A stretch of DNA of 64,000 nucleotides from Diaphorobacter limosus. Lineage in GTDB: Bacteria; Pseudomonadota; Gammaproteobacteria; Burkholderiales; Burkholderiaceae_C. Below, in pieces: positions 53,250 to 60,437 of this stretch (positions are counted from its first letter, which is position 1; each line of letters starts with the position of its first letter). The stretch lies in assembly GCF_033100095.1 (NCBI RefSeq), contig NZ_CP136921.1, forward strand, positions 3,995,001 to 4,059,000. The letters are read 5' to 3'. The notes beneath the pieces are model-generated. The model made no database searches. It had not been told where the DNA came from and saw only the letters and a program-made list of their open reading frames with translations. The position numbers and the translations under genes were made by a program.

Positions 53250-56200
53250 ATGAACCTGTCGCGCCTGTTCATCCTGCGGCCGATCGCCACCTCGCTGCTG
53301 ATGGTGGCCATCCTGATCGCCGGCCTGCTGGCCTGGCGCCAGCTGCCGATATCGGCCCTGCCCGAGGTGGACTACCCCAGCATCCAGGTGACCACGCTCT
53401 ACCCCGGGGCCAGCCCGGATGTGATGACCTCCAACGTCACCGCGCCGCTGGAGCGCCAGCTCGGCCAGATGCCGGGCCTGGCGCAGATGTCGTCCACCAG
53501 CTCGGGCGGCGCTTCGGTGATCACGCTGCGCTTTGCGCTCGATATGTCGATGGACGTGGCCGAGCAGCAGGTGCAGGCCGCCATCAACGCCGCCACGTCG
53601 CTGCTGCCCAATGACCTGCCGATGCCGCCCTTGTATAGCAAGGTGAACCCGGCCGACGCGCCCATCCTGACGCTGGCCATCACCTCGCCCACGCTGCCGG
53701 TGATACGCGTGAACGACCTGGTGGAAAACCGCCTGGCGCCCAGGCTGTCGCAGGTCCAGGGCGTGGGCCTGGTGGCCATAGGTGGCGGGCGCCGCCCGGC
53801 CGTGCGCATACAGGCCAACCCCACGGCGCTGGCCGGCCTGGGGCTGACGCTGGAGGACCTGCGCAGTTCAATCGCCGCGGCCAACGTGAAGGCCGCCAAG
53901 GGCGGCTTTGACGGGCCCGAGCGCGCCTCCACCATAGATGCCAACGACCAGCTGCAGTCCGCCGCCGAGTACCGCCAGCTGATCATCGCCTTCAAGAACG
54001 GCAACCCGGTGCGCCTGGCCGACGTGGCCGCCACCGTGGACGATGCCGAGAACACCCGCCTGGCCGCCTGGGCCGCCACGCCGGACACTGGCGCGCGCGC
54101 CGGCGTCATCCTGAACATCAAGCGCCAGCCCGGCGCCAACGTCATCGCCACGGTGGACCGCATCCAGGCGCTGCTGCCGCAGCTGAAAGAATCGCTGCCG
54201 GCGTCGCTGGACGTGCAGGTGCTGACCGACCGCACCGTGACCATACGCGCCTCGGTGCGCGACATGCAGACCGAGCTGATGCTGGCCATCGCCCTGGTGG
54301 TGGCGGTGATCTTCGTCTTTCTGCGCTCGGCATCGGCCACGCTGATCCCCAGCTTTGCCGTGCCGCTGTCGCTGGTGGGCACCTTTGGCGTGATGCATCT
54401 GGCGGGGTTCTCGATCAACAACCTGACGCTGATGGCGCTGACCATCTCCACCGGCTTTGTGGTCGATGACGCGATTGTCATGATCGAAAACATTGCCCGG
54501 CATCTGGAGATGCCGGGCAATGTTTCGGTGCAGGCTCATGGGGCCGAAGGCCCCGTGAAGGACGCGCAAGCGTCCGGCCATAGCCAGAACACGCCAGCAC
54601 CCCACATCACCCCCTTGGAGGCTGCACTCCAGGGCGCCAAACAGATAGGCTTCACCATCATCTCGCTGACCATCTCGCTGGTGGCGGTGCTGATTCCGCT
54701 GCTCTTCATGGGCGACGTGGTGGGGCGGCTGTTCCGGGAGTTCGCCATCACCATGGCCGTGGCCATACTGATATCGGCCGTGGTCTCGTTGACGCTCACG
54801 CCCATGCTGTGCGCGCGCCTGCTCAGGCATGACCCGGAGCAGGCCCGTGGCCGCCTGTACCACGCCACCGGGCGTTTTCTGGACGGCATGATCGCCGGGT
54901 ACGGCCGGCTGCTGGCTTGGGTGCTGGACCGTCGCGGCCTGACCTGGGGCGTGTTTCTGGCCACGCTGGCCATCACCGCGCTGCTGTACCTGGCGGTGCC
55001 CAAGGGCTTCTTCCCGACGCAGGACACGGGCACGCTGCAGGCCACCACCGAGGCCGACCAGTCGATCTCGTTCGCCGCCATGGCCGAACGCCAGCAGGCA
55101 CTGGTCGAGCGCCTGCTGCGCGACCCGGCGGTGCAGAGCATTTCCTCCTTCATCGGCGTGGATGGCAGCAACACCACGCTGAACACCGGCCGCCTGCTCA
55201 TCGACCTGAAGCCCCACGGCGAGCGCGACGACGCCGCCACCGTGCTGCGCCGCCTGTCGGACGACAGCCGCGGCCTGCCCGGCATACGGCTGTTTGCCCA
55301 GCCGGTGCAGGATCTGACGATAGAGGAGCGCGCGGCGCGCACCCAGTACCAGCTGCTGCTGTCATCGCCCGACATGGCGCAGCTGGCGCGCAGCAGCGCG
55401 GCCCTGGTCGAGCGCATGCGCGCCCTGCCCGAGCTGACCGACGTGGGCAGCGACCAGCAGAACCTGGGCCGCCAGGCCTATGTGGAGATAGACCGCGCCC
55501 AGGCCAGCCGCCTGGGCGTGACGGTGGCGGCGGTGGACCAGGCGCTGTACAACGCCTTCGGCCAGCGGCTGATCTCGACCATCTTCACGCAGTCGAACCA
55601 ATACCGCGTGGTGCTGGAGGTGGCGCCGCAGTTCAAGCTGGGGCCCGAGGCGCTGCAGGCCATCCATGTGGCCTCGACCAGTGGCGCGCCGGTGCCGCTG
55701 TCCTCCATCGCCCAGGTCAGCGAGCGCAGCATGGCCCTGGCCGTCAGCCATGTGGGGCAACTGCCCGCGGCCACCATCTCCTTCAACACCGCGCCCGGCG
55801 TGGCCCTGGGCCACGCCGTCAAGGCGGTGCAGGGCCAACTGCAGGCCGCGCGGGACGCCGGCGAGCTGCCGCTGGCGGTGGAGGCGCAGTTCCAGGGCGC
55901 GGCGCTGGCGTTCCAGGCGTCCTTGTCCAACACGCTGCTGCTGATTCTGGCGGCGGTGATCACCATGTACATCGTGCTCGGCGTGCTGTATGAGAGCACC
56001 ATCCACCCGGTGACCATTTTGTCCACGCTGCCCTCGGCGGCAGTGGGGGCGCTGCTGGCGCTGATGGTGGCGGGGCTGGAGCTGGACATCATCGCCATCA
56101 TCGGCATCGTGCTGCTGATCGGCATCGTGAAGAAGAACGCCATCATGATGATCGACTTCGCCCTGGAGGCGCAGCGCGAGCAGGGCCTGAGCGCGCGCGA

Positions 56201-56450
56201 GGCCATCTTCCAGGCCTGCCTGCTGCGCTTTCGGCCCATTTTGATGACGACTCTGGCGGCCCTGCTCGGCGCCTTGCCGCTGATGCTGGGCCAGGGCGTG
56301 GGCAGCGAACTGCGCCACCCGCTGGGTGTGACCATGGTGGGGGGGCTGCTGCTGAGCCAGTTGCTGACGCTGTTCACCACGCCGGTGATTTACCTGACCT
56401 TTGAAGGCTGGGCGCAGAGGTGGCGGGGTTTTGGGGTAAAAAATGCATGA
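53250..56450 (+). CDS. mdtB: RND efflux permease, MdtB-type, with a ~30-residue in-frame insertion
   Basis: Inner-membrane proton-driven drug efflux protein of 1066 residues. The N-terminus is [61 protein letters not shown]4 carries the proton-relay Asp-Asp in [19 protein letters not shown]. Here a loop [18 protein letters not shown]... of ~30 residues, absent from the MdtC-like paralogue below, is inserted before [17 protein letters not shown]. The rest is normal: [43 protein letters not shown], the C-terminal [13 protein letters not shown]. The last codons (FGVKNA) lie in a short repeat. Adaptor, two permeases and channel suggest the MdtBC heteromeric plan. Confidence 0.92.
54491..54575. 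repeat. Run of three perfect hairpins inside the MdtB-like gene
   Basis: 15-bp arms CATTGCCCGGCATCT (54491-54505) and AGATGCCGGGCAATG (54508-54522) around 2 nt; GGGGCC-GAA-GGCCCC (54540-54554); GGACGC-GCAA-GCGTCC (54560-54575). They lie in the insertion of the permease gene, without breaking the frame. Confidence 0.8.
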
Positions 56451-56490
56451 AGCGCTTGTGTATCAAGCGTCAGGCGCTATCTTTATTTCT
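56437..56490 (-). repeat. Short interspersed repeat, copy 11
   Basis: Minus-strand AAGATAGCGCCTGACGCTTG, spacer, CAAGCGCTTCATGCATTTTT. It overlaps the stop codon of the MdtB-like gene and abuts the 824-bp palindromic element. Confidence 0.65.
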
Positions 56491-57313
56491 AATTGGGGTC
56501 AGATTCCAATTAAATCCTGGCTGGTTGCTTGCTTGTTGCTGGCCGGGTCTCGCCCCGGCAGGCGAGGTACTTTTCTTTGCTTCGCCAAAGAAAAGTACCC
56601 AAAAGAAAGGCGACCCTGCTGTCCGTGTCCTTGCGCTTCGCTCCGGGCAACCTGCGGTGCTCGGTCACGGGGCGTGCCGCAGAACTCACTGCGCGCTGCG
56701 CGCTTCGTTCAAACAACTGCGGCAAGTCAGTCCACAAAGCATGCGCGCTGCGACGCGCATGCCCGCCCCGCGCCCTGCGCTCCTCGGCACGGCCAGAAGG
56801 GAGTGGGGACGACACGGGCCATCGCTGCGCTCGGCCCGGCAAAAGGCGCGCCCCGCGCGGGGCCGAGCGCAGCGATGGCCCGTCTCGGGCTGTTCAACCC
56901 CCTGGGGCTGCGCCTGGGGCGGGGCGCTTGCGGGGTGGGCATGCGCGTCGAAGCGCGCATGCATCGTCCTCTAGCTTGCCGCGGTTGTATGAACGGAGCG
57001 CCGCAGGCGCGCAGTGAGTTCTGCGGCACACCCCGCAAGCGCCCCGACCCAGGTTTGCCCCGTAGCGCAGCGAAGGGGTCGCAGACTTGGGGTCGCCTTT
57101 TCTTTGCTTACTTTCTTTTGGCGAAGCAAAAGAAAGTGAGTGCGCCGCCGGGCGCATATCCCGGCCAGCAACATCAAAAAGAAGAGCTACCAGCGACCTA
57201 CCAGCAAGCGCTGGATGCCAAAATTAATTGGAGTCTGACCCCAATTAGGTTGACCCCAATTAGGTTTCCAAACAGGTGTAAGCGGGTAGTTAATTGGAAT
57301 CTGACCCCAATTA
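56490..57313. mobile_element. 824-bp non-coding palindromic element between the two RND permease genes
   Basis: Bounded by perfect 23-bp inverted repeats (56490-56512 and 57291-57313; core AATTGGGGTCAGATTCCAAT). Inside are a perfect 21-bp inverted pair (56676-56696 and 57007-57027), a perfect 22-bp pair (56816-56837 and 56860-56881), a 14-bp hairpin GGTACTTTTCTTTG with a CTTCGC loop (56566-56599) and its mirror-like partner near 57107-57140 with a GCGAAG loop. Extra copies of the end motif sit at 57224-57257. No transposase, integrase or recognisable protein is coded; the open frames here look like by-products of GC-rich repeats. It accounts for the whole 880-bp gap between the permease genes. 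Confidence 0.75.
57201..57225 (+). repeat. Half copy of the short interspersed repeat
   Basis: CAAGCGCTGGATGCCAAAAT: the right half only, near the right end of the 824-bp element. Confidence 0.5.
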
Positions 57314-57332
57314 AGGGCGCGGGAGGTGTGGC

Positions 57333-60300
57333 ATGAGCCTGTCCACCCCCTTCATCCACCGCCCCATCGCCACCATGCTGCTGACCCTGGGCCTGGCGCT
57401 GGCCGGGGCGGTGTCGTATTTTTTGCTGCCGGTGGCGCCGCTGCCGCAGGTGGACTATCCGACGATCTCGGTCAGCGCCAGTCTGCCCGGCGCCAGCCCC
57501 GACACCATGGCCGCCACGGTGGCGACGCCGCTGGAACGCTCACTGGGCGCGATAGCCGGGGTGAACGAGATCACCTCCAGCTCCAGCCTGGGCAACACGC
57601 GCATCACGCTGCAGTTCGACCTGTCGCGCACCGTGGACAGCGCCGCGCACGACGTGCAGGCCGCCATCAACGCCGCGCGCACGCTGCTGCCCACCGGCAT
57701 GCCCAGCAGCCCGACCTACCGCAAGGTGAACCCGGCGGACGCGCCCATCATGATCCTGGCGCTCACCTCCGCCAGCCTCACGCGCGGGCAGATGTACGAC
57801 GCGGCCTCGACGGTGCTGGCGCAAAAGCTCTCGCAGGTCGAGGGCGTGGGCCAGGCGGTGGTCAGCGGCGGGGCGCTGCCGGCGGTGCGTGTCGAGCTCG
57901 ATCCGGTGCGGCTCGCGGCCAGCGGCATCTCGCTGGAGCAGGTGCGCGGCGCCATCACCAGCACCAACGCCAACCGGCCGCTGGGCGCTCTGGAGCGGGG
58001 CGGCCAGTACTGGCAGGTGGCCACCAACGACCAGGCGCGCGCGGCGGCCGACTACGCGCCGCTGGTGCTGGCCTGGCGCAATGGCGGCGCCGTGCGCCTG
58101 GCGGACGTGGCGCGGGTCACCGACTCGGTGCAGGACGTGCGCAACTACGGCGTGGCCAACGGCCAGCCGGCCATATTGCTGCAGATCTACAAGCAGCCGG
58201 GCGCCAACATTTTGGACGCGGTGGAGCGCGTGCGCGCGCTGCTGCCGCAGCTGCAGGCCTCGATACCGGCGGCGATCGACATCACCGTGGTGTCGGACCG
58301 CACGCCCACGCTGCGCGCCTCGGTGGACGAGGTGCAGCGCGCGCTGCTGATTGCCGTGGCGCTGGTGATCCTGGTGGTGTTCTTGTTTTTGCGCCGGCTG
58401 CGCGCCACGCTGATTCCGGCCGTGGCTGTGCCGGCGTCGCTGGCCGGCACCTTTGGCGTGATGTACCTGGCGGGCTATACGCTGGACAACCTGTCGCTGA
58501 TGGCGCTGACGGTGGCCACCGGCTTTGTGGTGGACGACGCCATCGTGGTGCTGGAGAACGTCATGCGCCACATGGAGCGCGGCAAGACGGCCCTGCAGGC
58601 GGCACTCGACGGCGCGCGCGAGATCGGCTTTACCGTGGTCTCGATGAGCCTGTCGCTGATAGCGGTGTTCGTGCCCATATTGTTCATGGGCGGCATCGTC
58701 GGGCGCTTCTTTCGCGAGTTCGCGGTGGTCATGTCCGCGGCCATTTTGCTGTCCATGCTGGTGTCGCTGACCACCACGCCCATGATGTGCGCGGCCCTGC
58801 TGCGCGCGCCCGCGCCGGGCCGGGCTGCGCCGGGCGCCTGGGCACGCCGGGCCGCGCACCTGGGCGCGGCCGTGCAGCGCGGCTACCGCCGCAGCCTGGC
58901 CTGGGGCCTGCGCCACCAGCCGCTGGTGCTGCTGGCGCTGGCGGGCGTGGTGGCGCTGAACGTGCACCTGTACCGGTCCATAGACAAGGGCTTCATGCCG
59001 GACCAGGACACGGGCCGCATCATGGGTTTCATACGCGCCGACCAGGCCACGTCCTACCAGGCCATGGAACAGCGCCTGAAGCGCTTTCTGGCCATCGTGC
59101 AGGAAGACCCGGCGGTGGAATATGTCACCGGCTTTACCGGCGGCGGCCAGCGCAACGCGGCCAGCATGTTCATGACGCTCAAGCCCATGGCGCAGCGCCA
59201 GGCCTCGTCGGATCAGGTCATCGCCCGCCTGCGCGACAAGCTGCGCAACGAGCCCGGCGCGCGCCTGTTCATGATGACGCAAAAGGACATACGCATAGGC
59301 GGGCGGCAAAGCAGCGCGTCGTACGACTACACGCTGCAGGCCGACGACATCGCCGACCTGCGCACCTGGGAGCCGCGCGTGCGCCAGGCGCTGGCGCGCC
59401 TGCCGGAGCTGGAGGACGTGAACAGCGACGTGCAGGACTTCGGCCAGCAGACCCTGCTGGAGATAGACCGCGACGCCGCCACGCGCCTGGGCCTGACGGT
59501 GGCGCAGATCGACGCCACCTTGAACGACGCCTTCGGCCAGCGCCAGGTGGGCGTGATCTTCAACCCCTTGAATCAGTACCGTGTGGTGATGGAGGCCGCG
59601 CCGCGCTACCTGCAAAGCCCGCAGACGCTCGCCGGCTTCTTCTTCGTCAACAAGGACGGCCGGCAGGTGCCGCTGACGGCCTTTGCGCGCATCGCGCGCG
59701 GCACCACGCCGCTGTCGGTCAACCACCAGGGCGGCACGCCGGCCAGCACCATCGGTTACAGCCTGGCCCCGGGTGTGTCGCTGTCGCAGGCCAACGACGC
59801 CATACGCGACGCCGTGGCCGGCCTGGGCGTGCCGGTGTCGGTGCGCGGCAGTTTCAGCGGCACGGCCGGGGCCTTTCAGCAGGCGCTGGCGGGCCAGCCG
59901 CTGCTGATACTGGCGGCCATCGTCACCATCTACCTGGTGCTGGGCATGCTGTATGAAGACCTGGTGCACCCCATCACCATCCTCTCCACGCTGCCCTCGG
60001 CCGGCGTCGGGGCGCTGCTGGCGCTGATGCTGTTCAAGACCGAGTTCTCGCTGATCGCGCTGATCGGCGTGCTGTTGCTCATCGGCATCGTGAAGAAGAA
60101 CGCCATCCTGATGATCGACTTTGCGCTGGCGCGGCAGAAAAGCGGCCGCGGCACCCCCGTGCAGGCCATCTACCGCGCCTGCCACCTGCGCCTGCGCCAC
60201 ATCTTGATGACCACCGTGGCTGCCATCTTCGGCGCGCTGCCGCTGGCCCTGGGCCACGGCGTGGGCGCCGAGCTGCGCCAGCCGCTGGGCATTGCCATCG

Positions 60301-60437
60301 TCGGCGGCCTGCTGGTGAGCCAGCTGCTCACGCTCTACACCACGCCCGTGGTCTATGTGCTGCTGGAGCGCCTGCGCCGGCGCCTGCGGGCGCGGCGCGG
60401 GGGTGGTGCAGCGGTTTTGAATCAAACAGGGCTCTAA
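57333..60437 (+). CDS. mdtC: RND efflux permease, MdtC-type
   Basis: Second inner-membrane efflux protein, 1034 residues. N-terminus [47 protein letters not shown]4 proton-relay [38 protein letters not shown] (no insertion, in contrast to the MdtB-like gene), FMPDQDTG, and terminal [26 protein letters not shown] 7-8 bp before ATG 57333 is a good ribosome site. The 824-bp element lies just upstream, so this gene may need read-through or its own promoter. Its stop codon falls in a short repeat. Confidence 0.92.

Follow-up and report, generated by a model that had tools for sequence, protein, structure and literature searches.

Layout of the insert

In the window (the whole 64,000-nucleotide stretch of DNA that was analyzed), an 824-bp non-coding palindromic insert (56490-57313) splits the two ACR_tran permease genes of an RND operon, and the stop of the mdtB-like gene lies 882 bp from the start of the mdtC-like gene. 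The insert consists of two nested layers, outer REP-type repeats and an inner separable core (56540-57167). Within the core, a unit of about 260 nucleotides occurs as an inverted dimer, each half of which is read outward. The genes, the outer layer and the center of the core are arranged as follows.

53250..56450, + strand: upstream RND permease, mdtB-like, ACR_tran (gene call, Pfam match)
57333..60437, + strand: downstream RND permease, mdtC-like, ACR_tran (gene call, Pfam match)
56490..57313, no strand: whole composite element, comprising REP-type ends, arms and the inverted dimer of the putative RNA (repeats; collapsed or core-only junctions in genomes G002, G001 and G003)
56490..56512, + strand: left REP-type end, TAATTGGGGTCAGATTCCAATTA (script; matches of a 22-base pattern in the genome)
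57225..57247, - strand: inner REP-type repeat on the right, differing from the outer one at one position (script)
57291..57313, - strand: right REP-type end, an inverted copy of the left without mismatch (script)
56815..56882, no strand: central 22-bp perfect inverted pair joining both units, 56815-56836 / 56861-56882 (located by script)

An earlier note on this DNA had described perfect 23-bp inverted ends, and both a direct reading and a script place them at 56490-56512 and 57291-57313. Also present where it had put them are a 21-bp perfect inverted pair (56676-56696 / 57007-57027), the central 22-bp pair, and mirrored hairpins with complementary loops (CTTCGC in 56566-56599 and GCGAAG in 57107-57140). 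Its statement that no gene lies inside agrees with our searches: the long frame 56443-57336 had no Pfam match, and among eight core copies translated in six frames, three have no stop-free frame and five have one or two, with copies covering differing spans and frames unmatched between copies. Given the missing Pfam match and the three copies without a stop-free frame, we rejected a coding element. A known Rfam RNA within the window element was likewise rejected, as only sub-threshold miRNA models matched. When folded as RNA, the core reaches z = -21 against 20 shuffles; given this fold and the core copies at 82-88% identity in the genome, the element is not a product of chance.

Outer repeats and turnover at orthologous sites

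The REP-type repeats enclose a core of about 630 bp of unrelated sequence. Across the genome, the 22-base REP pattern matches 17 times in forward and 17 times in reverse orientation (at most 3 mismatches; some places are counted on both strands, the repeat being nearly its own inverse), and a reversed control pattern matches 0 times. The genome holds one Y1_Tnp (PF01797) match at E <= 0.001 (G000:C1:3467617-3467943, in a 233-aa frame), and REP repeats surround this frame at 3467498, 3467545 and 3468361. Because the Y1 gene is flanked by the same repeats, the outer ends are, judged by their sequence, REP-type and RAYT-linked, as the earlier note had suggested. The tetranucleotide GTAG, of the kind conserved ahead of REP hairpins, adjoins the right REP-type end and not the left one in the window copy.

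To compare mdtB-mdtC junctions, we tried 32 loci, of which four had no readable upstream gene. The 28 remaining rows are best matches, some only 47-60% identical, and include the same G003 locus twice and our own genome once. The two genes overlap by 4 bp in 13 of the 28 rows and are 10-31 bp apart in six more, in keeping with the claim that they normally abut. In G009, which belongs to another genus, the junction measures 96 bp and has no element. G003, of the same genus, carries the whole core without REPs. A remnant of the left end and one REP are left in G001, and in G002, of the same species, REPs and arms are kept and the core has collapsed to one short hairpin. In G005, the contig with the mdtB-like gene ends, and the contig with the mdtC-like gene starts, inside element sequence. 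Other copies vary similarly. The copy at 3204757 has no element at the orthologous site in three congeners (G003, G001 and G004), and for the copy at 2899719, G006 lacks the element and G001 has the same kind of hairpin scar; the empty sites compared have diverged in sequence.

These core-only, empty and collapsed sites suggest that the core often moves or is lost and that the REPs are separable from it. The earlier note had named one spacer shared by all orthologous operons, with no copies elsewhere, as the outcome that would speak against a mobile element. The comparison showed instead element-free or collapsed orthologous sites, and core copies elsewhere in the genome and in relatives. Its view of a dispersed element without genes therefore stands, but not that of a single unit bounded by REP ends: because G003 has the core without REPs at the same junction, REP ends do not define the core.

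Two further observations concern these sites. Loci L076 and L317, which are different loci, have nearly identical collapse scars in which the arms of the PK1 stem (see below) are fused (GCTGGCCGGG-GCGAG-CCCGGCCAGC), which suggests deletion between GCCGGG repeats. By eye, a short repeat (AAGCGCTT...AGCGCTGG.AGCTAT...) was seen at element-free junctions (the L117 junction, L315 and L316), and related sequence lies directly outside the core in the window (56450-56490 and 57172-57211). This short repeat may mark a target that the element prefers, or may belong to its outer portion.

Structure of the repeated unit

The two halves of the core share the following predicted parts (position 1 of locus L001 is window position 54980).

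56540..56802, - strand: left RNA unit, 5' end at 56802, 3' end at 56540 (alignment A1 row L001:1561-1823:-; covariation)
56898..57167, + strand: right RNA unit, in the sense of mdtC (alignment A1 row L001:1919-2188:+)
56540..56629, - strand: 3' module of the left unit (scores 108.9 bits with model R1, the sequence itself being in the model)
57078..57166, + strand: 3' module of the right unit (R1 match, 94.8 bits, likewise in the model)
56566..56616, - strand: left triplex pseudoknot PK2 (stem 56566-56579/56586-56599, third strand 56600-56609; second stem, loop 56580-56585 with about 56610-56613)
57090..57140, + strand: right triplex pseudoknot PK2 (stem 57107-57120/57127-57140, third strand 57097-57106, S2 strand in 57090-57097)
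56541..56566, - strand: left terminal pseudoknot PK1 (covariation, position script)
57141..57166, + strand: right terminal pseudoknot PK1 (covariation, position script)
56676..56723, - strand: left P4-type hairpin, with conserved AACTC.../...TCAAACA sides (covariation)
56978..57027, + strand: right P4-type hairpin (covariation)
56788..56802, - strand: 5' strand of the left long-range helix P_A (pairs with about 56614-56627; covariation)
56898..56914, + strand: 5' strand of the right long-range helix P_A (pairs with about 57077-57092; covariation)

Covariation supports a 3' module of two successive H-type pseudoknots and a 5' domain that P_A closes around further hairpins. In segmented modules compared by eye, the loop covaries with downstream bases, so that the hairpin is read as a pseudoknot, and the purine run after the hairpin matches the stem in parallel. 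In a large alignment of 194 non-redundant units (effective number, 85), the stem pairs of columns 45-62 and 46-61 follow Watson-Crick rules in 90% and 93% of cases, where 49% and 51% would be expected. For the third-strand pairs 45-75 and 46-76, taken in parallel, matches reach 96% and 95%, where 52% and 51% would be expected. Positions in P_A, P_B and P4 stay paired, using three or four different pair types. Excess pairing, up to about 0.40, is also seen in many column pairs that belong to no helix (e.g., with column 285), because composition differs between lineages.

A smaller alignment, A1, holds 53 RNA-sense units, hand-chosen from 79 representatives that were drawn from the 164 of the 194 units keeping at least 4 of 8 P_A pairs; being preselected on P_A, A1 bears on the other contacts only. 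Forty-six of the 53 units form alignment A2, the basis of the 90-position model R1 of the 3' module. For the 53 units, RNAalifold returned the PK2 stem and a PK1 stem, with changes in both partners at 12 of 15 pairs. The 28 named pseudoknot pairs are standard in 90.6% of cases, compared to 78.1% when shuffled and 32-55% when slid, and 20 of them have changes on both sides. Second stems of at least 4 pairs occur in 33 of 52 parsed R1 matches, the others being shorter, mis-parsed or diverged (7 of 59 matches were too short to parse). Loci outside the R1 model have the loop/partner combinations TGGC/GCCA (L340 and L342) and TGCC/GGCA (L345), and a CTC triplex state.

In the first pseudoknot, the comparison places loop L1 alongside the purine strand of the stem, in parallel register. 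The four variable contacts of the predicted triplex match in 95.7% of cases (81.8% shuffled, 45-80% slid) with 45 double-changed cells, compared to 86.3% and 25 cells for an antiparallel control, which itself also beats shuffles and rises to 94.3% when slid by 2. Two of the five measures of the triplex test fail to beat shuffles (49 and 293 of 500), and because the two commonest states give most of the double changes, the number of independent changes is lower than the cell count. The matched states include T4CT3/A4GA3, T3CT4/A3GA4, T4CT4/A4GA4, T3CT5/A3GA5, T3CTCT2/A3GAGA2 and T3CT3C/A3GA3G; a few modules mismatch (T3AT4/A3CA4 in L208; L250). Over 10 third-strand positions including the stem ends, antiparallel matching scores slightly above parallel (8.0 and 7.7), and over 9 positions the scores are 6.9 and 7.0. 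Only the asymmetric inner positions tell the two registers apart. Taken with these limits, the alignments support a third strand whose changes track those of the stem in parallel register, in the manner of a U.A-U / C+.G-C triple helix.

The earlier note had suggested a very long RNA hairpin, but a mere hairpin does not account for conserved pseudoknots within each half, with compensatory and parallel-triplex covariation. The same evidence bears on the proposal that the element is an ordinary MITE-like palindromic repeat whose pairing is a by-product of the palindrome. Inverted repeats, the lack of genes and variable presence are what such a repeat would show, but the covarying contacts lie within each half, single modules included, palindromic copying does not yield parallel (mirror) matching, and the 3' module spans families. 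We consider this explanation highly improbable.

The two arms of a dimer often have different stem/third-strand types (A and B), in the window (56566-56616 and 57090-57140) and at many other loci, with near-identical arms in L174 and L193; in most of the loci compared, one arm had been picked by pattern. Differing arm types might prevent a perfect palindrome, which would be unstable.

Strand of the unit and relation to TwoAYGGAY RNA

Flanked non-Watson-Crick pairs on the module strand comprise 65.2 A.C and 14.2 G.T by weight (160 and 28 raw). One stem position contributes 29.6 of the 65.2, and the remainder, about 35 versus 14, differs at P = 0.004 (binomial, weights treated as counts). A.C on the module strand is G.U on the outward strand, where the predicted triplex is of the pyrimidine kind, and these pairs therefore favor the outward strand as the putative RNA. 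The outward strand is independently pointed to by TwoAYGGAY, an orphan RNA family in Rfam (RF01731), which lies on the same strand. No sigma-70-like promoter was found in the element region.

In gammaproteobacterial relatives, the 5' domain is, as far as model matches tell, TwoAYGGAY RNA. RF01731 scored above threshold in 3 of 18 element loci scanned, on the outward strand. Conversely, TwoAYGGAY was found in 34 of 398 genomes, from which 30 loci were taken; R1 matches directly 3' of it on the same strand in 19 of the 30 (E <= 0.05; 17 at E <= 0.01), and 11 have no adjoining R1 match. In shared loci, the RF01731 and R1 matches adjoin or overlap. The window region 56440-57340 gave no RF01731 match at E <= 1 and did not reach the covariance-model threshold of 43 bits, and its genome gave none at E <= 0.001 with stricter filters. 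AYGGAY hairpin loops, which occur in the relatives L158, L340 and L350, were not seen by eye in either window unit; the outer closing helix is present in the unit, as in TwoAYGGAY (P_A covariation).

Selection could act on DNA instead, the element being a large REPIN-like structure with pseudoknotted or H-DNA ends that serve as single-strand substrates for an HUH/Y1 enzyme, here RAYT. Such selection would fit the inverted-pair architecture, the REP ends with a REP-flanked Y1 gene, and the similar PK1-stem scars that collapse has left in G002 (mdtB-mdtC) and G001 (second locus), and triplex covariation suits DNA equally well. The excess of A.C over G.T is, however, unexpected for DNA, and the core without REPs in G003, the strand shared with TwoAYGGAY and the long-range helices also speak against this reading; palindrome slippage accounts for the scars without an enzyme. 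We regard selection at the DNA level as unlikely.

Occurrence, dimers and gene context

In its own genome the core has three near-full copies at 82-88% identity and further partial ones. It was found in all seven genomes of the genus sample (own genome included), 69 of 120 of the family (E <= 0.001), 54 of 200 of the order and 32 of 398 of the phylum (both E <= 1e-6); these samples share genomes, and outside the family it is mainly the short end module that matches. Model R1 detected the 3' module in 56 of the 398 phylum genomes (E <= 1e-4), with matches outside the class in nine genomes of one family, all weak (best 8.7e-8 to 4.9e-5). One exact pattern retrieved at least 120 loci, with Acidovorax, Polaromonas, Silvimonas, Aggregatibacter, Actinobacillus and a Methylomagnum MAG among the carriers. 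Thirteen plasmid records match, 11 of them over the short hairpin module only. A phage-borne origin was rejected, with 0 matches in 50,697 phage records, and two exact patterns found 0 and 1 stretches in viral contigs.

Gammaproteobacterial MAG loci L168, L246, L234 and L213 carry an A/T-rich version of the element with a well-conserved 3' module; the interior, as read in L246, differs strongly. A separate repeat of about 50 bp (CCTCACCCCTCCCTCTCCCC...GGGGCGAGGG; G000:C1:2900299-2900349) flanks one core copy and is very abundant in the genus, with many places in G000, G002, G004 and G005 among the matches listed.

A profile of the end module (about 58 bases) gave 95 neighboring module pairs (loci from L087 on, some overlapping), 76 of them inverted (+/-) and 400-799 bp long; +/- pairs longer than 1 kb are rare (3 of 95). 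In L164-L283, the profile counts 67 dimers and 64 single modules, although by eye the "single" L187 is a dimer whose other arm falls below threshold, and some others are cut by contig ends. L156 and L260 appear to be true monomers. At L156:1467-1677, the single unit runs antisense to an operon, between sequences that by eye look like the 3' end of dnaN and the 5' end of recF. Two Aggregatibacter dimers have AAGTGCGGT, presumably the Pasteurellaceae DNA-uptake signal, in the middle (L187 about 1938, L175 about 1060), and a Silvimonas dimer (L170:1950-2215) has tandem CCCCAA-like and CCGTTG-like repeats in its center.

Autonomous relatives, which the earlier note had proposed to locate, did not emerge: no co-travelling gene was seen near the 120 loci L164-L283 among the 12 largest clusters of 699 adjoining frames. 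By eye, the 63-locus cluster resembled low-complexity antisense frames, and the next two (7 and 6 loci) resembled transporter proteins.

By crude ORF calls, dimers lie between convergent, tandem and divergent genes in 17, 28 and 6 cases, against a background of 29, 103 and 51 (gaps of at least 60 bp). Elements are thus rarer between divergent genes than background, and REPs likewise are rarer there. Single modules in tandem contexts are sense in 9 cases and antisense in 13; this lack of sense bias argues against a simple 3'-UTR role. The scarcity of divergent neighbors and the strong structure could also reflect a bidirectional transcription terminator or a BIME-type stabilizer of mRNA 3' ends, with no trans-acting RNA. 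We hold this possible, if doubtful: terminator-like matches in the region are near chance (3; mean 1.9, SD 1.5), the conserved structure goes far beyond the needs of a terminator, and the element lies inside an operon here.

Proposed role of the element

Copies of the unit are dispersed, occupy orthologous sites in some genomes and not in others, and often form inverted dimers; in this genome, the REP repeats that enclose the unit flank a RAYT-like gene as well. We think it somewhat probable that the unit is a structured-RNA repeat of the non-autonomous kind, with a triple-helix end that would resist nucleases and/or bind protein, coated here by REP/RAYT. Such an element would spread as a non-autonomous repeat, at this locus perhaps with help from REP/RAYT. 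Read-through of a dimer from either side would give a transcript ending in a sense unit, whose triple-helix end could block 3'-to-5' decay and/or present a protein-binding RNA. The 5' domain may bind a protein, which in the TwoAYGGAY branch would be of the CsrA type. In the RND operon, the insert replaces the usual overlap or near-abutment, and the separation of 882 bp probably weakens translational coupling of the two permeases.

If this reading is correct, an orphan Rfam family is joined to a large class of dispersed palindromic repeats, a natural bacterial triple helix of about eight layers is backed by covariation, and the old question of the role of long intergenic palindromes becomes directly testable. 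A more far-reaching idea, to which we give little credence, is a proteobacteria-wide mobile RNA: the unit of about 260 nucleotides would be a self-contained, non-coding, retroelement-like RNA, its 3' triple-helix double pseudoknot the recognition end for a reverse transcriptase (host or mobile) or nuclease, outward dimers its propagating form and TwoAYGGAY one branch.

Comparison with known systems

REPINs are short. Like REP/REPIN sequences with RAYT, the outer 23-mers are dispersed short palindromes that form inverted pairs and flank the genome's Y1 gene; unlike in those systems, the repeats here enclose a core of about 630 bp, which occurs without REPs in G003.

SAM-II/SAM-V, preQ1-II and telomerase RNA contain H-type pseudoknots with a major-groove triplex. 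In these, as in our predicted PK2, the first loop runs along the purine strand of the second stem. The unit differs from them in its about 8 consecutive predicted triples, its occurrence as a dispersed repeat and the second pseudoknot that follows.

The Beta-proteobacterial repeat element (BRE) is also a dispersed repeat, located near small RNAs in Bordetella and present in Polaromonas and Acidovorax, but in the parts of the source consulted it is described as 75-91 bp, tandem and 69% GC (PMC3110155), whereas the 3' module has an A/T-rich stem and is often inverted; BRE was compared by description only. Descriptions of the 3' module or the inverted dimer were not found in the sections available to us of a mainly open literature that includes PMC3110155, PMC8266576, PMC12513839, PMC2864571, PMC4333381 and PMC11701678.

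TwoAYGGAY was, in the portions seen, rated as probably RNA and not cis-regulatory (PMC2864571) and proposed to bind CsrA (PMC4333381). The unit has in common with it the strand and a closing helix with inner hairpins, and several of its loci are outward inverted pairs (e.g., L376, L381 and L382). What sets the unit apart is the double pseudoknot with a predicted triple helix and the inverted-dimer layout, which are absent from the consulted parts of PMC2864571, PMC4333381 and PMC11701678.
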